From Protula sp. h YS-2021 (Eukaryota; Annelida; Polychaeta; Sabellida; Serpulidae): a stretch of 64,000 nt of DNA. The notes beneath the pieces are model-generated. The model was not told where the DNA came from. It ran no database searches and saw nothing but the letters and a program-made list of their open reading frames with translations. The stretch spans positions 47,481,601-47,545,600 of the forward strand of contig OX457025.1 in the NCBI GenBank assembly GCA_949752745.1, in the 5' to 3' direction. Shown in pieces: positions 37,009-64,000 of this stretch (its first letter is position 1; the number at the start of each line of letters is the position of its first letter). A program made the translations under genes and the position numbers.

Positions 37009-37014
37009 CTAAGA
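37009..37014. repeat. target-site duplication, left (CTAAGA)
   Basis: Six bases directly before the element terminus AGTAGGTAGA, identical to 40036-40041. Six-base duplications are the hallmark of Polinton/Maverick integration. Confidence 0.92.
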
Positions 37015-37424
37015 AGTAGGTAGATAAGGCCGGTTCTGCTGCACTTTGTGACGTCATACTGTCTGGACCGGAAGTGACGTCATCGTGTCTTGACCGGAAG
37101 TGAGGTCATAGGCGTGGTCATGGCAACGAAGTGACGTTATATGCGTAACCATGGTGATAATGACGTCATCAGGCACGTGACCAATGAAAAGCCAATGAAA
37201 TCAATGAAGACAATAAAGCCCCGCCAACTTTCTGTCTATCACCTGTCAATCATCGTGACGTCATGAATCACATGACCAATGAAAAGCCAATGAAATCAAT
37301 GAAGACAATGAAGCCCCGCCCAATTTCGGTCTATCACCTGTCAATCATCGTGACGTCACACCCCTCATATCTATTTTTAGACTTGGGAAATTTTACAACA
37401 TTCATTTTTAGTAACTTTTTAAAA
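37015..37424. promoter_or_regulatory. left terminal inverted repeat, outer part: ETS/CRE/CCAAT-rich
   Basis: By eye there are five exact TGACGTCA octamers (37049, 37075, 37161, 37256, 37351). One is fused to an ETS-type core as ACCGGAAGTGACGTCA (37067-37082). A second ACCGGAAGTG is at 37092. Two groups of 'gaccaatgaaaagccaatg' CCAAT-like repeats, a CACGTG and a GC box in reverse ('gccccgcc') follow. The arrangement looks like a CpG-type animal promoter. Function is inferred from motifs only. Confidence 0.6.
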
Positions 37425-38200
37425 AGTAGATAACTTTCGCTATACTTGGTCGATGTGTATGAAAATTTCACTGTTTGATTCAGTTTTATGTAAAGTTTTG
37501 TTATAAAGTAATCACAGGCTATTTGCGCAGCTGGCTGTATGCATTTTTGTAACATGCCGCCATTTTAATTTTGTAAAAAGTGAAAAAGTGGGATAACTTT
37601 CGCTATAGTTGGTCGATTTGCATGAAAATTTCACTATTTGATTCAGTTTTATGTAAAGTTTTGCTATAAAGTGGTCACAGGCTATTTGCGCAGCTGGCTG
37701 TATGCAGTTTTGCAACATGCCGCCATATTAATTTTGTAAAAAGTGAAAAAGTGGGATAATTTTCGCTATAGTTGGTCGATTTGCATGAAAATTTCACTAT
37801 TTGATTCAGTTTTAAGTAAAGTTTTAACATTAAGTGGCTATAGGCTATTTACATTGGTGGCTGTATGCATAATGTGACATGCCACCATTTTAACTTTCTA
37901 AAAAGTGAAAAATTGAGATAATTTTCGCTATAGTTGGTCGATTTGCATGAAACTTTCACTGTTTGATTCAGTTTTATATCTACTTTTGTTATAATGTAGT
38001 CATGGCCTATTTGTGCAGCTGGCTGTATGCATTTTTGTAACATGTCACCATTTTAACTTTGTAAAAAGTGGAAAAGTGTAATAACTTTCGTTATGGTTGA
38101 CCGATTTGAATGAAAATTTCACCATTGGATTCGGTTTGATGTCTTAGTTTACAGTAGTTTGCATAGGTGGTTGTTGGAATGGCGCGCGCCCACCATTCAA
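37425..38200. repeat. ~162-bp subterminal tandem repeat, about 4.7 copies
   Basis: Units begin near 37429, 37592, 37756, 37917 and 38079 with 'gataactttcgctatagttg' and continue 'gtcgatttgcatgaaaattt'. They end with 'cagctggctgtatgcat' and 'ccattttaa'. Divergence rises toward the inside of the element. Two units face inward from the right arm (39460-39785), and 2.3 units occur at 56003-56365 in the large Polinton. Confidence 0.88.
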
Positions 38201-38227
38201 ACATGTGTTTGAATTATTTTTACGTCA

Positions 38228-38436
38228 AACTATTGTTCAACAAGTTGTTTAGCAATTGTACAACAATTATTCAACAAGCTGTTGTTCAACATGTTCAGCA
38301 TGTTGTTGAACATGTTCAACATGTTCAACATGTTCAACATGTTGTTACACAAGTTGAACATGTTGAACATGTTCAACTTGTTCAACACCATGCTGTTTAA
38401 CAAGTTGTTGTTCAACAAGTTGTAGTTCAAGCAAAG
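38228..38436. repeat. left cluster of GTTCAACA palindromes
   Basis: Dense alternating copies of 'gttcaacat' and 'gttgaacat' build nested palindromes such as GTTCAACATGTTGAAC, with a matching smaller cluster at 39374-39446 on the other side of the gene. The sequence could form cruciforms or serve as a multi-site binding array. The open frames across it (QHVQHV, NMLNMLN) are repeat artefacts. Confidence 0.8.
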
Positions 38437-38554
38437 AAAAAACAAGACATATGTTGAATAGGTTTATTAATACAATTAAATACACTTAAATACACTTAAA
38501 TACATACAGCTTAAATCTATAACAATATTACAATATTTGTTGATTTACAAAGTC

Positions 38555-38560
38555 TTTATT
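38555..38560 (-). terminator. poly(A) signal of the zinc-finger gene
   Basis: AATAAA on the minus strand, 8 bases past the stop codon of the gene ending at 38568. A second AATAAA lies at 38461-38466. Confidence 0.6.
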
Positions 38561-38567
38561 ATAAAGC

Positions 38568-39311
38568 TTAGTCAAATAAGCCTATTTTTCCTTCATCTGC
38601 TTCACTGTCATCCATATCACTTTCTTCGTCGCTGCTTTCATCTTCGTCCTCCTGATCTAGAAGCTCTTCAAACAATGCATCGTTTCTTCTTATAGCCGCC
38701 TTTAGTGCCTTTGAATACTCGTAATGTTTTTCATCAACAAAGTAATTAAAGTCTTCTAAAATGGTTTGATAATGTTCGTTTTGTTCTGGACGTTGGGCAT
38801 ATTTGAATAGCCTCATAAACAGTTGTTTAAGTCGACGCTTATAAATGGGTCGAAAGTCGTCACTTGCTATGTCACGCGCATCTTCAAGCCCTTGTTCTTC
38901 ATATTCTGAAACCTTTTCTTGAAATTTGGTATCATATTCATCGTAGACTTCTTGAACCATATCATACCAAACAGAGTCTGTTTCTGACTCACTTTCAGAG
39001 TCTGTTTCTGGCTCACTTTCAGAGCTGCTGTCATCATCACCCTCACCACAATGTTCCATATGTTTGTACAAAGCTTCTTGACTGTTGTATAACGCACCAC
39101 ATTCTGTACAAGCACGTGCATTCTTTTCAATCATGTTGACGCTTTGACTTTCCATAGAAGACTCATCTAAAGTTTCAGTGATAGGTGGTTTTACCGGCTT
39201 TTCCATATCTATCTCCAATTCTTCTTCTTCTGAAGTGTGAGCATTCTTTAAGTGCCTTTTAAGACTTTGTGGCCAATTGTTAGATTTCAAACAAATGTTA
39301 CATTTATACAT
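38568..39311 (-). CDS. two-C2H2-zinc-finger acidic protein of the mini-Polinton
   Basis: An intact 247-residue frame starts at ATG 39311. Finger 1 is residues 4-25 (C4-x2-C7-x12-H20-x4-H25). Finger 2 lies around residues 67-87 (ACTECGALYNSQEALYKHME with a following H and C), spaced C-x2-C-x12-H-x2-H or ending in C. A serine/aspartate/glutamate-rich segment follows (ESEPETDSESESETDS), then a predicted helical region (PIYKRRLKQLFMRLFKYAQR) and an acidic tail rich in D/E. A TATA-like TATATAAGG lies about 50 bp upstream, and an AATAAA lies just past the stop. It is the only gene of the element. A role in binding the palindrome arrays or terminal repeats, or in transcription of the element, is inference. 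The sequence shows no transposase-like catalytic motif. Confidence 0.85.
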   Translation of the reverse strand: MYKCNICLKSNNWPQSLKRHLKNAHTSEEEELEIDMEKPVKPPITETLDESSMESQSVNMIEKNARACTECGALYNSQEALYKHMEHCGEGDDDSSSESEPETDSESESETDSVWYDMVQEVYDEYDTKFQEKVSEYEEQGLEDARDIASDDFRPIYKRRLKQLFMRLFKYAQRPEQNEHYQTILEDFNYFVDEKHYEYSKALKAAIRRNDALFEELLDQEDEDESSDEESDMDDSEADEGKIGLFD

Positions 39312-39363
39312 CCTTTCGGTTCAACATACACTTTCCAAATGATGAAAAAGCCTTTAAACATAG

Positions 39364-39372
39364 CCTTATATA
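39364..39372 (-). promoter_or_regulatory. TATA box of the zinc-finger gene
   Basis: TATATAAGG on the minus strand, 53-61 bases upstream of the ATG at 39311. It sits between the gene and the right palindrome cluster. Confidence 0.65.
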
Positions 39373-39373
39373 C

Positions 39374-39446
39374 AACTTGATGAACAACATGTTGAACATG
39401 TTCAACTTGTTGAACATGTTGTTCAACATGTTCAGCATGTTGTTGA
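39374..39446. repeat. right cluster of GTTCAACA palindromes
   Basis: Copies of 'gttgaacatgttcaac' placed symmetrically to the left cluster, directly upstream of the gene's TATA box. Confidence 0.8.
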
Positions 39447-39454
39447 ATTATCTC

Positions 39455-40035
39455 AATTTTTCACTTTTTACAAAGTTAAAATGGTGGCATGTCACATTAT
39501 GCATACAGCCACCGGTGTAAATAGCCTATAGCCACTTAATGTTAAAACTTTACATAAAACTGAATCAAATAGTGAAATTTTCATGCAAATCGACCAACTA
39601 TAGCGAAAGTTATCCCACTTTTTCACTTTTTACAAAATTAAAATGGCGGCATGTTGCAAAAATGCATACAGCCAGCTGCGCAAATAGCCTGTGACCACTT
39701 TATAACAAAACTTTACATAAAACTGAATCAAACAGTGAAATTTTCATACACATCGACCAAGTATAGCGAAAGTTATCTACGATTGACAGGTGATAGGCAG
39801 AAAGTGGGCGGGGCTTTATTGTCTTCATTGATTTCATTGGCTTTTCATTGGTCACGTGCCTGATGACGTCATTATCACCATGGTTACGCCTATGACGTCA
39901 CTTCGTTGCCATGACCACGCCTATGACCTCACTTCCGGTCCAGACAGCACTTCCGGTCCAGACACGATGACGTCACGTCCGGTCCAGACAGTATGACGTC
40001 ACAAAGTGCAGCAGAACCGGCCTTTTCTACCTACT
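39455..40035. repeat. right terminal inverted repeat of the mini-Polinton
   Basis: The inverted match to the left arm runs from the terminus inward, through the promoter-like block and two ~162-bp units. It has one copy of the 95-bp block that is duplicated on the left, and four exact TGACGTCA octamers (39864, 39893, 39968, 39994). Confidence 0.88.
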
Positions 40036-40041
40036 CTAAGA
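40036..40041. repeat. target-site duplication, right (CTAAGA)
   Basis: Identical to 37009-37014, directly after the terminal CCTACT. Confidence 0.92.
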
Positions 40042-56002: not shown

Positions 56003-56365
56003 TAAAATTGCGATAACTTTCGTTATAGTTGACCGATTTGTATGAAAATTTCACCATTTGATTCAGTGTTATGTAAAGTTTTGTTATAAAATAGTCATGG
56101 GCTACTTGCGCAGCTGGCTATATACATATTTATAGCATGTAACCATTTTAACTTAAAACTGGGATAACTTTTGTTATACTTGACCGATTTCAATGAAAAT
56201 TTCACCAGTTTATTCAGGTTTATGTAAATTTTTGCTATAAAGTGATCATGGGCTAGTTGTGCAGGTTGCTGTATGCAATTTTACCACCATTTTAACTTAC
56301 TAAAAAAAGGGGGATAACTTTAGCTATAGTTGGTCGATTTCAATGAAAATTTCGCGGATGAATAC
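56003..56365. repeat. ~162-bp subterminal repeat shared with the mini-Polinton
   Basis: 2.3 units beginning 'gcgataactttcgttatagt', with 'gaccgatttgtatgaaaatt' and 'cagctggctatatacat'. Same order and orientation relative to the terminus as in the left arm at 37425-38200. Confidence 0.85.
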
Positions 56366-56529: not shown

Positions 56530-56652
56530 CATGAGTGAAACATGCCAATTAGTCAACTAGTAATACATTCTGTCAACAAGTCAACAAGTGGAGATTGTGT
56601 GACGAGAAAAAACTTCACAATGTCTGCATTACTTTTTGACAGATGTATGACT

Positions 56653-57057
56653 ATGGACGACATCTTTAAAGTGAATTATACTAACTATGTATTTTCAAAG
56701 CTTCCTGCTTTTGAATGGGATTGGATGCAGCAAGTGAAGAATTTACATTTGCATTGGGAAGCTGTCGCAAAGGCTATTCCAAGTGATTGTTTCATCCACT
56801 CGTTTCTACGTGACTGTGAACATTTACATATACTATCAACTTATGACATTGATTCAGCATTTATCAACGTGAATACAATTTGGGCAGTGGAGCTCATGTT
56901 AGTTGTAGCTGCAAGAATCATTTTGCTTTATGATGATGATGTTCCATTGACGACGAATGTATCAGACCTTGTTCGGTTCAACCATGGACGAGTTGAAGTG
57001 AATTCAAAGCTTTGCAAGAAGTTTGAAAAGCTTAATTCAGCAGATGGTTGGGTATAA
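56653..57057 (+). CDS. Polinton small paralogous protein 1
   Basis: 134 residues from ATG 56653. An upstream ATG at 56542 would add 37 residues, but paralogue 2 starts at the equivalent position (MDDVFKVNY against MDDIFKVNY), and both starts follow a similar 'gacagatgt...gact' leader, so I choose 56653. The protein is helical and acidic in parts, with VKNLHLHWEAVAKAIP, FIHSFLRDCE, YDIDSAFIN and a basic/polar tail (VRFNHGRVEVNSKLCKKFEK). It is about 75-80% identical to paralogue 2 by eye. No known domain or transmembrane segment. The stop codon lies inside the TATA box of the next gene. Confidence 0.8.
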   Translation: MDDIFKVNYTNYVFSKLPAFEWDWMQQVKNLHLHWEAVAKAIPSDCFIHSFLRDCEHLHILSTYDIDSAFINVNTIWAVELMLVVAARIILLYDDDVPLTTNVSDLVRFNHGRVEVNSKLCKKFEKLNSADGWV

Positions 57058-57060
57058 AAG
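57053..57060 (+). promoter_or_regulatory. TATA box overlapping the stop of small protein 1
   Basis: TATAAAAG; its TAA (57055-57057) is the stop codon of the preceding gene. ATG 57109 lies 49 bp downstream. Confidence 0.6.
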
Positions 57061-57108
57061 AACGGACTTCAAAGGTATTAGTACATTGTAGACAGATGTG
57101 CAGAGACT

Positions 57109-57519
57109 ATGGATGATGTGTTCAAAGTAAACTATATTTACTGTGTGTTTTCAAAGCTTCCTGCTTTTGAATCGGAATGGATGTGGCAAGTGAAGAATTT
57201 GCATTTACATTGGGAAGCTGTTGGAAAGGCCATTCCAAGAGATCGTTTCATCCACTCATTTCTGAGGGAATGTGAAGACCTGAATTTACCAGGAAACACC
57301 TATGACATTGAATCGGCATTTATCAACGCCAATACAATTTGGGAAGCTGAACTCATGTTAGATGTAGCTTATAGAATTATTTTACATTATGATGATGACG
57401 TTCCATTGGCAACGAATGTATCAGACCTTGTTCGATTCAACCATGGACGAGTTGAAGTGAATTCAAAGCTTTGCAAGTTGTTTGAAAAGGGAGCTGACTC
57501 AGCAGATAGTTGGGTATAA
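57109..57519 (+). CDS. Polinton small paralogous protein 2
   Basis: 136 residues, the closest relative of the preceding protein. Shared blocks are FSKLPAFE, WQVKNLHLHWEAVGKAIP, FIHSFLRECE, TYDIESAFIN and DDDVPLATNVSDLVRFNHGR. Differences concentrate at residues 9-24 and around 60. It probably arose by tandem duplication that included the promoter and leader. Function unknown. Its stop is also embedded in a TATA box (57515-57523). Confidence 0.8.
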   Translation: MDDVFKVNYIYCVFSKLPAFESEWMWQVKNLHLHWEAVGKAIPRDRFIHSFLRECEDLNLPGNTYDIESAFINANTIWEAELMLDVAYRIILHYDDDVPLATNVSDLVRFNHGRVEVNSKLCKLFEKGADSADSWV

Positions 57520-57523
57520 AAGG
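57515..57523 (+). promoter_or_regulatory. TATA box overlapping the stop of small protein 2
   Basis: TATAAAAGG; its TAA (57517-57519) ends the preceding gene. The next ATG (57558) is 35 bp downstream, a normal distance for a short leader. Confidence 0.6.
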
Positions 57524-57557
57524 AGTGGAGTCAAAGTAATCATTGCATTGTGCAGCC

Positions 57558-58190
57558 ATGGAGAAGACAAGCAGTTTTAAAATTAGTGTTAACTTAACCA
57601 TTACTGTGGAGCATGGAGAATTTGGACCATTTCTTCGAATCAAACGTGGAGAGAAATGACTTGCTTTATCGTCATCTTTGTGGAATATTATATGTCAAAA
57701 CTTGAAAAATTTACGCGACATTGGCCTCAAACTGTACTTAACGCAGACGAAGTGGCTTGAAGTCATTTCATACCAAGACATGCGCTATGTGAGTTTTGTG
57801 CGCACATCGCTGTTTGAAGGGAAAGAATACAAGTATTACATCAACATGAATGACGGTGAATGGGAGACCCTGCTTCAGGAGTTGGATAACATCAACTCAG
57901 TCTTATTCGCCAAACCTGAGCCATGTACAGAATGCCATGGTGTGAAAACTGTCATCAAACTGCTAAAGGATAATCGGATGAAGGTATCAAAACTATCCAA
58001 GAAAAGACTGGCTGAAGTTGAATTGGAGAATATGAACGTGCAAAATCAGCTTGAACTTACGTGTGAATATTGCGGCGCTTGTGGATATGCCAGTGATTAT
58101 GATTGTCACTGTCACAAGTACAATTGTAATATGTGTGAACCAGACAACTTCTGCATCAAGTGCGGTTCGCTAACAGTATCACCTTTTTGA
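57558..58190 (+). pseudogene. PC4-like, zinc-ribbon protein gene with an in-frame TGA
   Basis: ATG 57558 opens a frame that meets TGA at 57657-57659 after 33 codons and then stays open in the same frame to TGA 58188-58190. There is no ATG near the start of the second part; a TTG at 57678 is not a credible start. So the gene appears to be broken by one nonsense codon, unless readthrough or splicing removes it. The middle region, YVSFVRTSLFEGKEYKYYIN then MNDGEWETLLQELDNI, has the layout of the PC4/p15 single-strand-DNA-binding fold (beta strands followed by EW-x-x-L helix). The C-terminal part is cysteine-rich: CTECHG, then CEYCGACGYASDYDCHCHKY, CNMC and CIKCG, suggesting two or more zinc sites. 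In Polintons such a protein could act in replication or transcription; that is inference. Confidence 0.6.
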
Positions 58191-58246
58191 AAATCATTTA
58201 CTCGCCAGCCGTCATAGTGTGCAGACGTGTCATATGAACATGTAGG

Positions 58247-58528
58247 ATGGATGTAGAAACATGTTTTAAGGAGAAGTATGTGGACTACATGTTAACTGAA
58301 CTGGAACGTTTTGGGTCTGTTCAACAACAACTACAACACTTTAGCATCTATTGGAAACTTGCTCATTTAGCGCTGAACTTGTCAAACTTACGCGAGGATT
58401 TCATCGAAGAGTGTGGTGACATTGACGGAGCTGAGAATTTCGATGTGGAAGCAGCATTTCACTTTGCTCGATTTGATCCAAGACTGTTTGATGAAGTGAG
58501 AGAGTGGTTAATGTATATTGCAGTATAA
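58247..58528 (+). CDS. Polinton small paralogous protein 3
   Basis: 93 residues. Diverged relative of small proteins 1 and 2: CFKEKYVDYMLTELERF aligns with VFKVNYIYCVFSKLPAF, HFSIYWKLAHLAL with HLHWEAVGKAI, and FIEECGDI...FDVEAAF with FLRECEDL...YDIESAF. It lacks the C-terminal ~45 residues of those proteins. Its TAA overlaps the next start as TAATG. Confidence 0.7.
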   Translation: MDVETCFKEKYVDYMLTELERFGSVQQQLQHFSIYWKLAHLALNLSNLREDFIEECGDIDGAENFDVEAAFHFARFDPRLFDEVREWLMYIAV

Positions 58529-58860
58529 TGGCGGACATTACATTGAAACAGTATATTGTGCAAAAAACATATTGTGAAGAAATGTTATTAGCTGTAAAAA
58601 AATTTGCATATTTATTATGTCCTGCTTGTCAAAATGAAGAGTGTCAAGAACATACTTGCCATTTCGCAAGTGTCTATACATATTGGAATGAAGCTAAATA
58701 TTATATTCATTTAGATAAAGTGTTAGACAATGCCAACAAACGTTGTGAGAAGTATGGGTTAAATGCTATAACATTTGATGAATTAAGTAGTTGGTTAGTA
58801 TGCATTGAACATGAATGGACGCCAATTATTCACACCATTGTGTCTATACTTGATTTATAA
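58528..58860 (+). CDS. Polinton small paralogous protein 4 with a zinc-knuckle-like insert
   Basis: 110 residues from ATG 58528, which shares its A with the preceding stop (TAATG). An upstream in-frame GTG at 58504 lies inside the preceding gene and is not used as the start. It keeps the family plan weakly (YCEEMLLAVKKFAYLL; FASVYTYWNEAKYYI; ITFDELSSWL). It inserts CPACQNEECQEHTCH, a possible metal-binding C-x2-C-x4-C-x4-C-H cluster. Two AATAAA signals follow (58892, 58930). Confidence 0.65.
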   Translation: MADITLKQYIVQKTYCEEMLLAVKKFAYLLCPACQNEECQEHTCHFASVYTYWNEAKYYIHLDKVLDNANKRCEKYGLNAITFDELSSWLVCIEHEWTPIIHTIVSILDL

Positions 58861-58891
58861 AAACCTGTAACATGTGTTTATTGGACAACGA

Positions 58892-58935
58892 AATAAAATG
58901 TTAGATATGTTCATTGAGGTATGAGGTGAAATAAA
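58892..58935 (+). terminator. two poly(A) signals before the integrase gene
   Basis: AATAAA at 58892-58897 and 58930-58935, each within the repeated phrase 'gaaataaaatgt'. They separate the early small-gene block from the integrase. Confidence 0.5.
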
Positions 58936-58976
58936 ATGTAGCGTATGTGTACAAGTGCTTTTCATTTAGTGTCAAC

Positions 58977-59807
58977 ATGTCAACGTGGAAGGAATACTTA
59001 ACCAATATTTACTTTAAACCTGGTCAACCCGGTGCATTTGCTGGTCCTTACAAACTTTATCACATATTAAAAAAACATGATCAACCAATTACTCATTCCA
59101 AAGTGAAGACATGGTTACAGAATCAAGATGCATTCAGTTTACTACAACCTGTAAAATATAGGTTTAAAAGGCAACATGTCATTACACGCGGTATTGATGA
59201 CATGTGGGATATTGATTTGGCTGACATGGGAAACCTAGCCTCTTATAACGATGACACCCGCTTTTTATTAGTTGTCATTGATGTGTTTTCGAAATATTTG
59301 TGGGTGCAGCCAATACCTAACAAATCACATACCAGCGTCATACAAGCTTTCCAGAATATTTTTCATGAAACACGTCGAAGACCGCGAACTCTAAGGTCAG
59401 ATAAAGGAACTGAATTTAAAAATAGATGGGTAAAAGCATTTTTGAAGAATGAGGGAATTCATGCTTACACGACAAAGAATGAAACTAAAGCCAACTTTGC
59501 TGAGAGAGTCATTCGTACTCTAAAGGGAATGATGTATCGATATTTTCTACATAATCAAACTTATCGGTATGCAGACATCCTTCAAGAATTGGTATACAAT
59601 TACAACCATAGACCACATGACTCTCTCCCTAATAAGTATGCTCCTGCAGATATTCGAAAGGAAAATGAATCTAAAGTGTGGAAGTATATGTATGTAGACA
59701 AATTGAAATTGAAACCAAAGAAGAAGAAAAAACCTTACAAATTTAAAATTGGTCAACATGTTCGCATTTCTCACTTGAAATATACGTTTAACGAGATTAT
59801 CATATAA
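58977..59807 (+). CDS. Polinton integrase (retroviral-like DDE), core intact, tail frameshifted
   Basis: 276 residues from ATG 58977 (MSTWKEYLTNIY). An in-frame GTG at 58947 is rejected as start. The N-terminal part (AFAGPYKLYHILKKH...VKTWLQNQ) and the connector before the core fit Polinton integrases. Catalytic residues: D80 in MWDIDLADM, D142 in LRSDKGTEF and E176 in ANFAERVIRTLKGMM, with 33 residues between the last two. IDVFSKYLW and YNYNHRPHDSLP are further family blocks. A lysine-rich linker and HVRISHLKYTF start the SH3-like C-terminal domain. The frame ends at 59807 because of a single-base length change near 59786-59792; the remainder lies in the next frame. It would catalyse insertion of the element with 6-bp duplications. 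Confidence 0.88.
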   Translation: MSTWKEYLTNIYFKPGQPGAFAGPYKLYHILKKHDQPITHSKVKTWLQNQDAFSLLQPVKYRFKRQHVITRGIDDMWDIDLADMGNLASYNDDTRFLLVVIDVFSKYLWVQPIPNKSHTSVIQAFQNIFHETRRRPRTLRSDKGTEFKNRWVKAFLKNEGIHAYTTKNETKANFAERVIRTLKGMMYRYFLHNQTYRYADILQELVYNYNHRPHDSLPNKYAPADIRKENESKVWKYMYVDKLKLKPKKKKKPYKFKIGQHVRISHLKYTFNEIII

Positions 59808-60079
59808 AATGGACCAAAGAAGTGTTCATTATCACACATCGTTATAAGAAGCAAGGAATACACTTGTATCGTGTGAAAGACTTTTTAGACGAAGATATTG
59901 ATGGTCATTTCTATGAAGAAGAATTGCAAGCTGTTACAAAAGATATTGAATCCATCTACAGAATTGAACAGGACTTGAAAACACGAAAAAGACGAGGTGT
60001 AAAAGAATTATTTGTCAAGTGGTTAGACTGGCCAAAGAAATTTAACAGTTGGGTAAAAGAAAGAGACATTCAGAAATGA
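59791..60079 (+). pseudogene. displaced C-terminal part of the integrase: SH3-like and chromodomain
   Basis: In the frame one base off the integrase core the sequence continues without a start: IKWTKEVFIITHRYKKQGIH, then YRVKDFLDEDIDGHFYEEEL, then the chromodomain YRIEQDLKTRKRRGVKELF / VKWLDWPKKFNSWVKERDI. Aromatic and tryptophan positions (Y-x-V/I-E, F-V-K-W, W-x-x-K-x-N-S-W) are those of chromodomains, common at Polinton integrase C-termini, where they may guide integration to chromatin. The separation indicates a frameshift mutation or an assembly error. The TGA overlaps the ATPase start (ATGA). Confidence 0.8.
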
Positions 60080-60735
60080 AGCATCCATTCACATGTTTGG
60101 TCTCTGGACCTACAGGCAGTGGTAAAACTTCTCTGGTGAAGGAAATTCTAGAACAAAATTTAATTAAACCCCCTCCAAAAACCATTTTATGGCTCTATGC
60201 AGCAGATCAACCTTTGTACAAGGGAATGAAAGGTGTAGAATTTTACCAAGGCATTCCAGACGACATTGAAGAGCGCTTTAACCCGAAAAAACAAAACTTA
60301 CTCATCATAGATGACTTAATGACTAAATGTCATAGTGATGAGCGTATGACACGCCTCTTTAGTGTAAGCAGCAGCCATCAAAATCTCAGCATTATTTTTA
60401 TTGTGCATAATTTATTTCATCATGGTAGAGAAATGCGAAATATTAGTTTGAATACACATTACATCATTCTGTTTAAAAATCCTAGAGATAGTCAACAAAT
60501 AAGTACATTAGCGCGACAAATGTATCCTGGAAAATCTCATTTTCTCATAGAAGCCTATCAAGATGCTACGAGCAAACTTCATGGCTATTTATTCATTGAC
60601 TTGAAGCCGAAGACAAATGATCAACTACGTATTCGTACAGGCATTTTACCAAAAGATACACATTACGTATATGTTGATAAAGTAGCGTATGAGCAAGAAC
60701 CAAGTCACTTAACCATTCGCAGCCAAGATGTCTAA
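60076..60735 (+). CDS. A32-like genome-packaging ATPase
   Basis: 219 residues from ATG 60076, which overlaps the preceding TGA (ATGA). A TTG at 60049 would add nine residues inside the chromodomain frame and is rejected. Walker A is GPTGSGKTS at residues 11-19 and Walker B is LLIIDD at residues 75-80. FIVHNLFHHGREMRNISLN carries the sensor asparagine and arginine typical of the FtsK/HerA-A32 branch. It is expected to pump DNA into capsids. Length matches Polinton ATPases. It overlaps the next gene by 8 bp. Confidence 0.9.
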   Translation: MKHPFTCLVSGPTGSGKTSLVKEILEQNLIKPPPKTILWLYAADQPLYKGMKGVEFYQGIPDDIEERFNPKKQNLLIIDDLMTKCHSDERMTRLFSVSSSHQNLSIIFIVHNLFHHGREMRNISLNTHYIILFKNPRDSQQISTLARQMYPGKSHFLIEAYQDATSKLHGYLFIDLKPKTNDQLRIRTGILPKDTHYVYVDKVAYEQEPSHLTIRSQDV

Positions 60736-61054
60736 ACGTATTCAAGCGAATCAACCTTTTCTTCATTTGCTCGCACGCAGTGGGCCTAAACGACGTAAAT
60801 ACTTGTTAGAGCAAGCTACTAAGGAGGAGTTAACTAGCTTGTTTGAAATTTGTTTGAATATATTGCGAGGACATTCACCCTTAAGCTCAAAAAGGTATAA
60901 GCAATTCAAGCGTGAGCGTCATACCCTTCGCACTCTAGCAGATAAGAAGATATCACTTCAAAGAAAAAAGAAGTTGGTTAATCAGAAAGGAGGATTCCTT
61001 GGAGCTATTGCTAAATTTGCATTACCTTTGTTAGCTCAGTTGCTGCTAAAATGA
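60728..61054 (+). CDS. small basic protein with C-terminal hydrophobic helix (virion-type)
   Basis: 108 residues. A basic N-terminal region (ANQPFLHLLARSGPKRRKYL, LEQATKEELTSLFEICLNIL) is followed by a lysine-rich linker. After VNQKGG comes a hydrophobic helix FLGAIAKFALPLLAQLLLK. The plan (basic body, GG, amphipathic tail) is common in Polintons and in related viruses and suggests a minor virion or membrane-active peptide released by a maturation protease. The GG at residues 88-89 sits in a Q-x-G-G context also seen in the 62613 protein. Function inferred. Confidence 0.65.
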   Translation: MSKRIQANQPFLHLLARSGPKRRKYLLEQATKEELTSLFEICLNILRGHSPLSSKRYKQFKRERHTLRTLADKKISLQRKKKLVNQKGGFLGAIAKFALPLLAQLLLK

Positions 61055-61641
61055 AACATACTTTGAAAATGGTCCTCATTCCTGAATATGAATATAAAAA
61101 GTTGTTGGAAAAGAAGGGAAAAGATGGTGAAATCAAATCGAAAGTGAATAAACTTTTACGTGGGAAACGAACTCGTGAGAAGGCAATGGAAATGTCTCAA
61201 CTTCTTGGTCGTCATTTACGAACAATTCAATCACAACAACAACGACAAAAGTCTGTCACATCATCTGGTACAGCAAAATCAGAAAAGTCGCAACAGTTTC
61301 TAAGCTATTTTCAACCTATATATCATGGAAAACTAACACAACTTTTGGTAGAACTGAAGAAACATGGTACGAGATGGACAGATAAAAATGAACTTGTATT
61401 GAAAACTGGGGATGTCATTGAGAATTCCAACAGTATTGATTTGTTGAAAGAAGCATTGGTTGCTACAAGAAGAAAAGAACGACGACAACCGCCGCAGGGG
61501 TGGAAGCAGTTTATTGAGGAAATTGTAGACGCTAATATCCCAAAAGCTGTTTTTGGAAAAAAGACAACTCGTGAAGATATTGCAAAAGAGATAAAACAGC
61601 GTCAAGAAAGGTTGTTTCCAGAAGGATGGAAAACTTTTTAA
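61051..61641 (+). CDS. Polinton conserved protein of unknown function
   Basis: 196 residues; start ATG 61051 overlaps the previous stop as ATGA. It begins KMVLIPEYEYKKLLEK, then has a basic coiled-coil-like part (GKRTREKAMEMSQLLGRHLR) and a glutamine-rich linker. The C-terminal half contains FSQ-free aromatic blocks (RWTDKNELVLKTGDVIENSN), SIDLLKEALVATRRKERRQP and GWKQFIEEIVDANIPKAVFG. Position and the 'W-x-x-K/N-x-x-L ... I-x-x-S-N' style match, from memory, a frequent Polinton gene next to the ATPase. No enzymatic motif is visible; a DNA-binding or assembly role is a guess. Confidence 0.6.
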   Translation: MKHTLKMVLIPEYEYKKLLEKKGKDGEIKSKVNKLLRGKRTREKAMEMSQLLGRHLRTIQSQQQRQKSVTSSGTAKSEKSQQFLSYFQPIYHGKLTQLLVELKKHGTRWTDKNELVLKTGDVIENSNSIDLLKEALVATRRKERRQPPQGWKQFIEEIVDANIPKAVFGKKTTREDIAKEIKQRQERLFPEGWKTF

Positions 61642-61817
61642 CATGGTTTAAACAGTTATGGTGTTGCTGTAAAGACAATGAAAATAAAAATACTATTCCT
61701 GTAAAAATTAGGTGTGTAAGCGCTTGTTGTCAAGGAGAAGTAGTAGACAGTAATATAGATCATGGAGACAGTAATATAGATCATGGAGACAGTGAAGACG
61801 ACGTGAGCCAGACATAA
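61626..61817 (+). CDS. small cysteine-rich membrane-peripheral-type peptide
   Basis: 63 residues, overlapping the preceding gene by 16 bp. MENFLTWFKQLWCCCKD suggests an amphipathic, possibly acylated N-terminus; VKIRCVSACCQGE is a second cysteine cluster. The tail holds a 21-bp direct duplication (SNIDHGD twice) and is acidic. Such short peptides with an 'IRCxSxCC' cluster recur in Polintons as far as I recall. Function unknown. Confidence 0.55.
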   Translation: MENFLTWFKQLWCCCKDNENKNTIPVKIRCVSACCQGEVVDSNIDHGDSNIDHGDSEDDVSQT

Positions 61818-61819
61818 TG

Positions 61820-61825
61820 TATATA
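61820..61825 (+). promoter_or_regulatory. TATA-like element before the penton-like gene
   Basis: TATATA directly after the preceding stop (61817) and 41-47 bp before ATG 61867. Possibly a separate late-gene promoter. Confidence 0.45.
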
Positions 61826-61866
61826 CACATTCAGTCTATCTACATCACATAAACGATTTAGTCATC

Positions 61867-62616
61867 ATGGAGTCAACAAGTTTTTACGTCACTTTGCCCA
61901 GCAATGCTAGTTTGAACTATTATTCTACTAATAAGGCGTCTAATTATCAAATTCGTTTACCTCGTACAATATATTTGAACGGAAAATATGAAGTAGCCTT
62001 AGCTGAAATTCAATACCCACACACATGGACGACAATGAGGCCAGGAATATACTATACTCTGCATTATCGATCATCATCATCAGATGTATTTTATCCAGTT
62101 TATATTCCATATGATTACTACAGAACCATACCTGAAATATGTACTGCAATAAATGCAGAATTACAAAAATCTATTAATGCAAACCCTATTAGGTTAAAGT
62201 ATGATAAAATTAGTCGAAAAGTTTCTCTTATTTTAAAAGAGGAATATGATATTGTCTTTTCTACTGGATTAGCTGAGATTTTAGGATTTAAACCAGGTAG
62301 ATGGTATAGAGAATCCGGTCCTGCTGAACATCAATCCGATGTGAAACATGGATTTTATACACTTTATGTGTATTGCAGTATTTGTGAGCCACAAGTAGTT
62401 GGAGATTATTATGTTCCTTTACTACGTTCTGTTCCCATTGAAGGGTATGATGGTGATATTATTATGAAAACCTATGAAGAACCTCATTACGTCACTGTAA
62501 ACACATCCAAATTTGACACAATAGAAATGAATATTAAGGATGACACAGGTTATAATGTGTCATTTCAAACTGGGAAAGTGATATGCAAACTTCATTTTCG
62601 ACCAAAAGCATTATGA
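61867..62616 (+). CDS. penton-like minor capsid protein (candidate)
   Basis: 249 residues. The start MESTSFYVTLPSNASLNYY followed by LPRTIYLNGKYEVALAEIQY and PHTW is a characteristic opening found in Polinton proteins of this size. The rest is beta-rich (FKPGRWYRESGPAEHQS; LYVYCSICEPQVVGDYYVPL; LLRSVP; HYVTVNTSKFDTIEMNIKDD), consistent with a single jelly-roll. It lies immediately upstream of the putative membrane-active protein and the major capsid gene, the usual position for the penton. The assignment rests on family resemblance and context, without a structure prediction. TGA overlaps the next ATG (ATGA). Confidence 0.65.
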   Translation: MESTSFYVTLPSNASLNYYSTNKASNYQIRLPRTIYLNGKYEVALAEIQYPHTWTTMRPGIYYTLHYRSSSSDVFYPVYIPYDYYRTIPEICTAINAELQKSINANPIRLKYDKISRKVSLILKEEYDIVFSTGLAEILGFKPGRWYRESGPAEHQSDVKHGFYTLYVYCSICEPQVVGDYYVPLLRSVPIEGYDGDIIMKTYEEPHYVTVNTSKFDTIEMNIKDDTGYNVSFQTGKVICKLHFRPKAL

Positions 62617-62969
62617 AAGCATATAGACACGATCCGTCAGCATATCGCAACCATTTTCTTCGTCAAGTGGGCGGAGAATTACCAGGATTTAAAGGAGCAC
62701 GAATACAATATGGAGATGGTATTGGTTCAATATTAGGATCATTGGCTCGCAAAGCTATTCCACTGCTTAAGGCAGGGGCTAAAATCGTTGCACCACATCT
62801 TATAAAGGCTGCAAAAGATGTCGCGAAAGATGTTACAGGTCGAGTAGCACAACGTGTGATTGGTGATGTCTTAGGAGTACAAAAGAGAGGACAACCTGCA
62901 AAACCTGTCAGAAGGCGAAAGGCAGCTAAACGGATAACATCAACAAAATATAAGAAATATATTGTTTAA
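62613..62969 (+). CDS. glycine/alanine-rich basic virion protein (pVI/core-like)
   Basis: 118 residues from ATG 62613, overlapping the penton stop. The order is FLRQVGGELPGFKGARIQYG, then GIGSILGSLARKAIPLLKAG, an alanine-rich amphipathic stretch and a strongly basic tail (KPVRRRKAAKR). 'QVGG' at residues 18-21 followed by 'LPGFxG' looks like a processing site. A hydrophobic amphipathic region plus basic C-terminus is reminiscent of adenovirus-type minor core or membrane-lytic proteins; this is analogy, not proof. The next ATG is two bases beyond the stop. Confidence 0.65.
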   Translation: MKAYRHDPSAYRNHFLRQVGGELPGFKGARIQYGDGIGSILGSLARKAIPLLKAGAKIVAPHLIKAAKDVAKDVTGRVAQRVIGDVLGVQKRGQPAKPVRRRKAAKRITSTKYKKYIV

Positions 62970-62971
62970 AC

Positions 62972-64000
62972 ATGTCTTTAATTCATAATAATTCTTGTGA
63001 ATGTAGCCTTTCTCCATTAGAATGGTTTCACGTACCACCAACGCAAACTGCTGTAGAAAAAAGTTATAATGTCGACTATCAACCACTCACTACCATTAGA
63101 GAGGGCGCTCCTATAGAATTCTACATTCCTGCGAGTACAGAAGAATATCTAGATTTAAAGAACAGCAGACTTCATATTGTATGCGCTATTGTAAAGGCTG
63201 ATGGAACACCATGTGATGTAGATGATAATGTATCATGTATCAATGATTTGTTTAATTGGTTATGGTCCAATATTGAATTGTTTCTAAACGATCGTTTGGT
63301 ATCACATAGTAACAATACCCATGGTTATACCAGCATCATATCTCATCTCATTCATGACTCGGAAGAAAGTCTCAATTCTGAGCGCTCTCTGCGTCTCATC
63401 TATAAAGATACTGCTGGGTCAATGAATAGTCATGAGGTGAAAAGAGCTAATCATGAAAGATATGTATCAGGTTTTCATGTAAATGTTGATGGTGGTGAGG
63501 TAGCTCTGCAGGCAAATAATGGTTTACATAATCGTTATTTGTATACACGTCAAAGCCGTGAGTTTACGATCACAGGCGGTTTAAGGGTAGATTTGTTTGA
63601 GCAAGATCGCTATCTTCCAAATGGTATTAGTATGAAATTACGTTTACATAGACAAAAAGATGAATATGTATTAATGGCTGCAAATAATGGTTATAAAGTA
63701 GAAGTGAGAGATGCGTTTTTAACCATTCGCAAAGTGAGGGTTAGTCCAGGCATTCAGTTAGGACATGCAGATGCATTGATGAAAAGTCCTGCTAAGTTTA
63801 TTATTACTAGAAAAGAGTGTAAAGTGTTAGCTATTCCAGCTGGATTTCAATCTTTTGTGAAAGATAACATCTTTTTAGGCCAATTACCCAAACGTATTGT
63901 CATTGGACTGGTTCATAATGAAGCCTTTGCTGGAACAGTATTGAGAAATCCATACAATTTTGATCATTTTTTTCTGAACTATATGCAACTTTACACGGAT
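62972..64000 (+). CDS. major capsid protein (hexon-like, double jelly-roll), 5' part
   Basis: ATG 62972 opens a frame that is uninterrupted for 343 codons to the window edge. The N-terminal part has SPLEWFHVPPTQTAVEKSYN, ...GAPIEFYIPASTEEYLDL and INDLFNWLWSNIELFLNDRL; later blocks are GYTSIISHLIHDSEE and LPNGISMKLRLHRQ. Near the edge come VLAIPAGFQSFVKDNIFLG, QLPKRIVIGLVHNEAFAGTV and NPYNF. These are the hallmarks of the Polinton major capsid family, which animal genome annotations often carry under a 'F54H12.2-like' label. Position directly after penton-like and small core genes agrees. The C-terminal part lies outside the window. Confidence 0.88.
   Translation, partial: MSLIHNNSCECSLSPLEWFHVPPTQTAVEKSYNVDYQPLTTIREGAPIEFYIPASTEEYLDLKNSRLHIVCAIVKADGTPCDVDDNVSCINDLFNWLWSNIELFLNDRLVSHSNNTHGYTSIISHLIHDSEESLNSERSLRLIYKDTAGSMNSHEVKRANHERYVSGFHVNVDGGEVALQANNGLHNRYLYTRQSREFTITGGLRVDLFEQDRYLPNGISMKLRLHRQKDEYVLMAANNGYKVEVRDAFLTIRKVRVSPGIQLGHADALMKSPAKFIITRKECKVLAIPAGFQSFVKDNIFLGQLPKRIVIGLVHNEAFAGTVLRNPYNFDHFFLNYMQLYTD

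Follow-up and report, generated by a model that had tools for sequence, protein, structure and literature searches.

A short element with Polinton-type ends

The window analysed here, a stretch of 64,000 nucleotides from Protula sp., contains an element of 3,021 bp (37015-40035) that begins with AGTAG, ends with CTACT and is flanked by direct copies of CTAAGA at 37009-37014 and 40036-40041; its junctions read CTAAGA / AGTAGGTAGATAAGG ... CCTTTTCTACCTACT / CTAAGA. The initial annotation had given 37009-40041, an interval that comprises the element and both duplications, and had described AG...CT termini, long inverted repeats and a perfect 6-bp target-site duplication, all of which are borne out by the direct sequence and by an alignment of the two arms. 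The outer part of the left arm (37015-37251, plus strand) is the terminal inverted repeat, and that of the right arm (39781-40035, minus strand) matches it at 90.6% with gaps, and at 95-97% within ungapped blocks. Both arms also contain 163-bp repeats, located at 37385-38142 (plus strand) and 39446-39777 (minus strand), the latter being 96% complementary to 37592-37923 over 332 bp.

Directly behind the terminal AGTAG lies a segment (37020-37041, plus strand) that differs among copies and is nearly identical at the two ends of one copy: over the first 30 nt, identity in 23 elements is 94.3% within copies versus 61.7% between copies. The adjoining subterminal block, CACTTTGTGACGTCA (37042-37056, plus strand), is present in some copies and includes the palindrome TGACGTCA, which occurs nine times inside the element versus once in the remainder of the window. 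Arrays of GTTGAACATGTT-type palindromic repeats lie on the 3' side (38226-38423) and the 5' side (39368-39451) of the gene.

This gene, the sole long open reading frame of the element (38568-39311 including the stop, minus strand), encodes a motor-less packaging-type protein of 247 aa. A TATA-like motif (TATATA, 39367-39372, minus strand) precedes the ATG by 55 bp, and an AATAAA polyadenylation signal lies just past the stop (38555-38560, minus strand), in line with the previous description of an intact gene with its own TATA and poly(A) signals. The protein had also been called a two-finger C2H2 protein, which is correct for finger 1 (C-X2-C-X12-H-X4-H, residues 4-25; 39237-39302, minus strand) and incorrect for finger 2, a C2HC finger (C-X2-C-X12-H-X3-C, residues 68-88; 39048-39110, minus strand). 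Residues 114-220 (38652-38972, minus strand) form a C-terminal helical domain, which has its homologue at the C-terminus of the packaging ATPases of Polintons. Five non-Polinton reading frames of the window were scanned as well; three are without a Pfam match, one matches DUF6451 and one gives a weak match to PI3K p101.

A packaging-ATPase protein without its motor

Pfam alone yields just a generic zinc finger above the cut-off for the 247-aa protein. A profile search of 5.8 billion sequences, with 8,000 candidates scored, reached P0003, which is the C-terminal half of the ATPase, at E 1.4e-6. Using hhalign, we obtained 98.6% / 1.1e-15, and 98.8% / 1.3e-16 in a repeat run whose controls (one reversed, five column-shuffled) were all negative; the match still stood at 98.2% / 3.8e-14 when the finger was removed. 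With blastp, the protein aligned to P0019 at E 1.6e-34 (43% over 185 aa), and P0032 was matched by finger 1 (57% over 28 aa). The full protein is arranged as C2H2 finger, ATPase, C2HC finger and helical domain, and in the alignment the ATPase core is missing while both fingers and the C-terminal domain are retained. Judged by these alignments, the gene of the element is a Polinton packaging-ATPase protein without the ~270 residues holding the motor. The modelled fold of the C-terminal domain (mean pLDDT 54.8) had no match in the viral library (best E 1.6), and none of 61 matches in the viral fold search reached E 0.001 or below.

In two trees, the motor-less protein nests among full ATPases, within clades supported at 100/99 (74 rows) and 100/100 (26 rows, of which 17 are ATPases and one is P0001). 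The larger tree includes P0003, L037, L050 and 63 of 120 fetched homologs, retained when they had a recognisable C2HC finger after the GK[ST] motif and at least 120 aa from there. Its labels change twice and motor-less monophyly appears in 3% of 200 bootstrap trees, which suggests that the motor was lost twice; the 26-row tree, where a branch (79/78) has all motor-less rows on the same side, does not bear this out.

Beyond this genome, two database searches, the first of which by itself gave one protein, returned P0002 as the only complete motor-less relative. All eight metal ligands of both fingers are kept in this comparison, and the motor-less form is not recent, the identity to P0002 being 46% over the whole protein. 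Its persistence in P0002 is the evidence that the protein was kept. A further protein, P0001, begins downstream of the fingers and may be part of a motor-less or of a full protein; the contigs carrying P0002 and P0001 measure 1,597 and 871 bases, respectively. Scans of viral contigs with the protein, alignment A3 and P0002 recovered no relative.

Copies, palindromes and candidate helpers

Elements like that of the window form a large family with Polinton-type ends. We delimited 23 elements, chosen by terminus, in the 863 Mb genome: 19 carry exact 6-bp duplications, all different, and two carry duplications with one mismatch. An exact flank match has a chance of 1/4096, and the tally exceeds chance, although the figure is to be read with the duplication itself having helped to set the boundaries. 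Twenty of the 23 contain the gene, whole or in part, and seven of these keep an open reading frame of at least 239 aa; the three gene-less elements are L014 (one-mismatch duplication), L020 and L021 (both with exact duplications). The many copies with different duplications and the same gene, as anticipated in the initial annotation, are thus found, and its statement that no Polinton machinery is encoded also holds: none of 12 Polinton core protein queries (E 1e-3; positive control working for 11 of them) matched in the 23 elements, including PolB, RVE integrase, MCP, penton, protease and the ATPase core. Family elements range from 1.4 to 7.5 kb. When the genome was searched with the protein, 150 near-full-length copies were scored out of 5,941 candidates, and 140 of these best-scoring matches are free of stops.

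Purifying selection on the gene, by contrast to what had been proposed, is not visible among the copies of this genome. Among copies that cover more than 60% of the gene, the N+stop:S ratio is 3.47 for singleton variants (118:34) and 2.6 for shared variants (26:10), against a neutral expectation of 3.62. Pairwise dN/dS ranges from 0.27 to 1.54 among 11 reading frames of at least 190 aa from 10 elements (two of 55 pairs undefined) and gives no evidence of selection. The copies in this genome look to be in neutral decay.

Many copies are palindromes with their halves head-to-head. Neighbouring pairs among the 150 gene matches are mostly head-to-head (37 pairs, versus two on the same strand and none tail-to-tail), and six head-to-head pairs share an equal spacing of 1,517 bp, which points to a recent burst. 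L009 and L027 are palindromic over their whole length. L049 and L050 are each a palindrome of one genome end; L050 (7,584 bp) is mirrored in the order end-integrase-ATPase / ATPase-integrase-end. The window copy, unlike such mirrored-gene palindromes, combines long arms with a single gene. Palindromes of these kinds are expected if a strand folds back during end-primed replication. In L037 and L038, the interval from PolB to ATPase was searched for a hairpin that might serve as a fold-back point, and none with arms of at least 12 bp was found.

Polintons with open genes are abundant in the same genome, and their autonomous-type members have AGTAG ends. We scored 102 family-A MCP regions of 7,533 candidates, three of them with a stop, and PolB gave 84 matches. 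One family-A copy is flanked by the 6-bp duplication GTAGAC. The short-element family has AGTAG and a nearby TGACGTCA in common with families B and C, and the remaining terminus differs. Polintons with open genes could act in trans, and mobilisation of the short elements would follow this route. Among the loci inspected, none is an autonomous Polinton bearing the subterminal sequence of the short elements. The one candidate, C3:13157739-13188489 (~30.7 kb), failed as an autonomous parent with the zinc-finger gene: the right-hand boundary of another family-A copy, together with GTAGAC as 6-bp duplication, showed it to be a Polinton inserted into an arm of one of the short elements.

A proposed satellite of Polintons and its alternatives

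We consider it somewhat probable (roughly 55%) that these elements constitute a large, long-lived family of Polinton satellites, mobilised in trans and equipped with a motor-less packaging-type protein. The integrase of a Polinton, acting in trans, would insert the element and give the 6-bp duplication, which is possible because the element has Polinton-type ends; the protein-primed Polinton polymerase would copy it from its ends, and fold-back during this copying would generate the head-to-head palindromic copies. The gene descends from one that encoded the packaging ATPase in some lineage of Polintons; it lost the ATPase motor and retained both fingers, N-terminal and C2HC, along with the C-terminal domain. 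Expressed from the satellite, the protein may act as an adaptor that binds satellite ends through its fingers and docks on helper packaging parts through its C-terminal domain, so that satellite DNA is favoured in packaging or helper packaging is disturbed. This is the most likely job for the motor-less protein, and we propose it tentatively, as a step that taken by itself is less probable than not. The earlier idea of a selected satellite-like parasite is supported in part: the family, its duplications and the packaging-ATPase gene agree with it, whereas selection among copies and a gene in every copy do not.

A stronger version, which we regard as rather doubtful, is a long-lived satellite of viral type whose sole protein, a motor-less packaging ATPase, redirects helper packaging and whose new lineages arise as fold-back palindromes of Polinton ends. 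If true, Polintons would form particles in Protula sp. often enough to feed a parasite. Animal Polintons may or may not still form particles; a satellite keeping a derivative of a packaging protein would speak, indirectly, for packaging being important to them. Satellite DNA, being short and abundant, is something to seek in particles. The palindromes also suggest a route to satellites, namely fold-back of a protein-primed genome end followed by loss of all genes but one.

The gene might instead be a decaying passenger in non-autonomous Polinton derivatives amplified for their ends. Near-neutral variant ratios within the genome, insertion of the gene-less L014, L020 and L021 and the burst indicated by the 1,517-bp spacing all fit this explanation, which is unlikely in our view given the age of the motor-less form (46% identity to P0002, eight finger ligands kept), the placing of all motor-less rows to the same side of a branch supported at 79/78 and the 140 of 150 matches without a stop, although these are the best-scoring ones. 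Less likely still, the protein could be a regulator or dominant-negative inhibitor. Through the finger and docking domains that it has in common with the packaging ATPase, it would block packaging of the helper, or control the transcription or copy number of the helper, and would not itself package the satellite. The two ends of an ATPase protein minus its motor are a layout suited to a dominant-negative, and adenovirus IVa2, a Pfam relative of the Polinton ATPases, acts both in packaging and in transcription. The evidence does not separate inhibitor from adaptor; blocking its own helper pays only if the satellite is thereby favoured. Capture of an ordinary host zinc-finger gene by a Polinton-type element is very improbable. 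While Pfam offers just the generic finger, and a repeat-free host copy could exist among the 150 matches, the flanks of a minority of which were inspected, we reject this origin on the specific homology to Polinton packaging ATPases at both protein ends; matches to solved structures are weak (best E 0.0009) and confined to the finger regions.

The proposed satellites share features with several known systems. Like non-autonomous DNA transposons and MITEs, they are small, present in many copies and in need of enzymes in trans; unlike MITEs, they carry a conserved packaging-protein gene and occur head-to-head, with whole-element palindromes in two delimited cases. In adenovirus-like viruses with protein-primed replication, defective interfering genomes are terminal fold-back palindromes keeping one parental end, as is seen in L050, L049, L009 and L027, yet the satellites are integrated with 6-bp duplications and belong to an old, many-copy family. 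They resemble Polinton/Maverick elements (polintoviruses) in their AG...CT ends, inverted repeats and 6-bp duplication, in a gene descended from the Polinton packaging ATPase, and in sharing a genome with open-gene Polintons; they differ in lacking matches to the 12 core proteins (23 elements) and in size (1.4-7.5 kb versus 15-20 kb; PMC4028283). PICIs are phage satellites redirecting helper packaging (PMC6739421, PMC9026076). The Protula elements are likewise small, putatively helper-dependent and provided with their own version of a packaging protein, and they differ in their animal genome, their putative Polinton helper and their motor-less ATPase relative. The PICI-like trait of encoding a variant of a packaging protein is seen in the homology to Polinton packaging ATPases generally.

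A family of small elements with Polinton-type ends

The satellite element of the window lies at 37015-40035 (3,021 bp) and, by direct sequence, is flanked on either side by CTAAGA. Its termini read AGTAG at the left end and CTACT at the right; each arm has an outer terminal repeat (237 bp at the left end, 255 bp at the right) and, further in, copies of a 163-bp repeat, which number about four in the left arm and two in the right and are 96% complementary over 332 bp. Palindromic arrays of the GTTGAACATGTT type stand on both sides of the single gene (38568-39311, minus strand, 247 aa), which has a TATA-like motif upstream and AATAAA 3' of its stop codon. The sequence TGACGTCA occurs nine times inside the element versus once in the remaining window.

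In the genome of the same animal (863 Mb, 218 contigs), a 192-base left-end query gave 69 matches, with the best 40 of 1,699 candidates scored. We took 25 further loci from this list, chosen by terminus and irrespective of gene presence, and delimited 22, placing a few boundaries manually; the window copy brings the set to 23 elements, between 1.4 and 7.5 kb long. Two loci with a single end each (L035, L036) and a nested locus (L029/L030) stand outside this count. The initial annotation had named many copies with differing 6-bp duplications and a common gene as support for a mobile family, and these were found. The duplication is exact in 19 of the 23 elements, each one distinct, carries one mismatch in two (L014, L026) and is absent from two (L017, L023). 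All or part of the gene is carried by 20 elements, with no copy found in L014, L020 or L021, and in seven it forms an open reading frame of at least 239 aa. Twelve Polinton core queries (two PolB, PC4, protease, MCP, penton, three integrases and three ATPases) had no match at E 1e-3 in any of the 23 elements; as a positive control, all of them except PC4 match relatives in loci L038, L048 or L049. A protein search scored the best 150 of 5,941 candidates as matches, 140 of them without a stop, a share inflated by the fact that these are the top-scoring ones. Over the terminal 30 bases, identity is 94.3% between the ends of one copy versus 61.7% from copy to copy (23 elements), so the ends of any one copy evolve in step. 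This hypervariable segment could be a helper-specific recognition site.

A packaging-ATPase relative without its motor

For the window protein, only a generic finger exceeds the Pfam cut-off. A profile of family members and P0001, a relative from outside this genome, was run against 5.8 billion proteins, with 8,000 candidates scored, and returned P0001 itself; P0002, a complete motor-less form with the layout of the window protein and 46% identity to it; and P0003, a Polinton-type ATPase represented by its C-terminal half (E 1.4e-6). Profile-profile comparison with Polinton ATPase C-termini gave 98.6% and E 1.1e-15. With one sequence added, a repeat reached E 1.3e-16 (reversed control 0.019, five column shuffles 0.32 to 0.86), and E 3.8e-14 remained once the finger was removed from the profile (reversed control 0.012). 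Compared directly with the closest ATPases, the window protein is 35% identical to P0034 over 235 columns (E 2e-44), its residues 36-220 match P0019 312-476 at 43% over 185 (E 1.6e-34), and its finger 1 shares 57% identity with P0032 across 28 aa. Alignment with the ATPases shows that the N- and C-terminal ends are retained and that the motor, including Walker A, is missing.

For the ATPase of L050, a palindromic family-C element described below, a search gave 139 homologs, of which 120 were listed; among the latter, 96 contain GK[ST], with a finger ahead of this motif in 43 and behind it in 73. Cys is the last ligand of the second finger in 71 of 73 homologs and likewise in the window protein. 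Named sources among the listed homologs are Mytilus, Mya, Solemya and one bacterial metagenome bin (Sedimenticola). In a midpoint-rooted tree of 74 rows, the motor-less proteins fall inside a 100/99 clade together with eight ATPase proteins; a tree of 26 rows groups them on the same side of a branch supported at 79/78, which makes a single loss of the motor possible.

Polintons in the same genome and a possible origin of the satellite

Polintons with open genes share this genome. PolB has 84 scored matches, many within open frames of 1,351 aa, and among the best 102 of 7,533 candidate regions scored for the family A MCP only three contain a stop. A family-A copy encodes MCP, PC4, protease, ATPase, RVE integrase with chromodomain and a NADAR gene (NADAR domain, E 1.2e-19, L039:6692-7267; PC4 coactivator domain, E 2.1e-8, L029:7239-7697); the family terminus is AGTAGTTATATAATGAGAG..., with GTAGAC as the duplication of the same copy. 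Family B, ending in AGTAGCAAGGGCG..., has the order PolB, C2H2-ATPase protein, integrase, end, and family C has an ATPase frame of 581-582 aa adjoining PolB at five loci. The window itself holds a family-A Polinton (56539-64000, truncated at the window edge, DNA 83-85% identical to L039) with integrase (58935-59804), packaging ATPase (60046-60732), penton-like (61807-62613) and MCP-like (62954-64000) genes; immediately ahead of these genes, at 56004-56353, lies an isolated, diverged run of the satellite's 163-bp repeats. AGTAG is common to the termini of the satellite, families A and B and L050, and beyond it the satellite ends differ from those of the other three. In L015 and L020, the hypervariable segment, near-identical at a copy's two ends, has AATGAGAGA in common with the family-A terminus.

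A locus of ~30.7 kb with satellite ends holds both Polinton genes and the zinc-finger gene. It was ruled out as the satellite's parent, as a family-A Polinton of ~18.3 kb (C3:13159111-13177458), with its own ends and duplication, sits in a satellite arm; the finger gene is absent from 7 kb at and past the right end of a second family-A copy. Inside the Polinton-hit satellite, a 136-bp tandem array also extends over more than 6 kb (L030:1-6270).

Among the 150 gene matches, neighbours within 3 kb form 37 head-to-head, no tail-to-tail and two same-strand pairs, and two elements, L009 and L027, are palindromic from end to end, with self-complementarity of 95.5% and 98.9% and duplications TAGTTT and CAAATT, respectively. 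ATPase genes form nine head-to-head pairs, from the best 83 of 61,755 candidates scored, with PolB beside none of them among the scored PolB matches. In one of these pairs, L050 (C5:2659967-2667550, 7,584 bp), the order is end-integrase-ATPase followed by ATPase-integrase-end, with AGTAG ends; TAGATA, which flanks both sides, lies within a TAGA repeat and is hence weak evidence of duplication. Given this layout and the family B gene order, the satellite may naturally have begun as a palindrome of a single Polinton end. Such a palindrome, centred upstream of the ATPase gene, would have lost integrase and motor while retaining the ends, the fingers and the C-terminal domain. The palindromes may be products of fold-back during end-primed copying, a replication mode that Polinton biology suggests for the satellite as well.

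Selection and proposed function of the gene

Purifying selection on the gene, which the initial annotation had looked to as support for a mobile family, left no clear sign within this genome: across 28 copies of the gene, drawn from 21 elements or loci, raw counts of nonsynonymous plus stop to synonymous variants are 118:34 for singletons and 26:10 for variants in at least two elements, where neutrality predicts a ratio of 3.62. The rival reading of the gene as a passenger is less likely than not but still carries real weight. Function is argued from the fact that the compact form has persisted in another sequence, P0002, and perhaps also in P0001. We tentatively favour a packaging adaptor (probability about 0.35). 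The satellite would be moved and copied in trans by Polinton enzymes, the fingers of its protein would bind DNA, and the shared C-terminal domain would contact packaging parts of the helper, so that satellite DNA is favoured. Published accounts of Polintons describe their capsid genes and an FtsK-like packaging ATPase (PMC4028283, PMC3671162, PMC11071308, PMC6431247, in the passages available); neither a small gene-bearing Polinton satellite nor a motor-less ATPase appears in those passages, or in the titles and abstract openings of a partially covered literature. One satellite carries an additional 257-aa proline-rich reading frame beside the finger gene (L024:3335-4108), for which Pfam gives no clear family.
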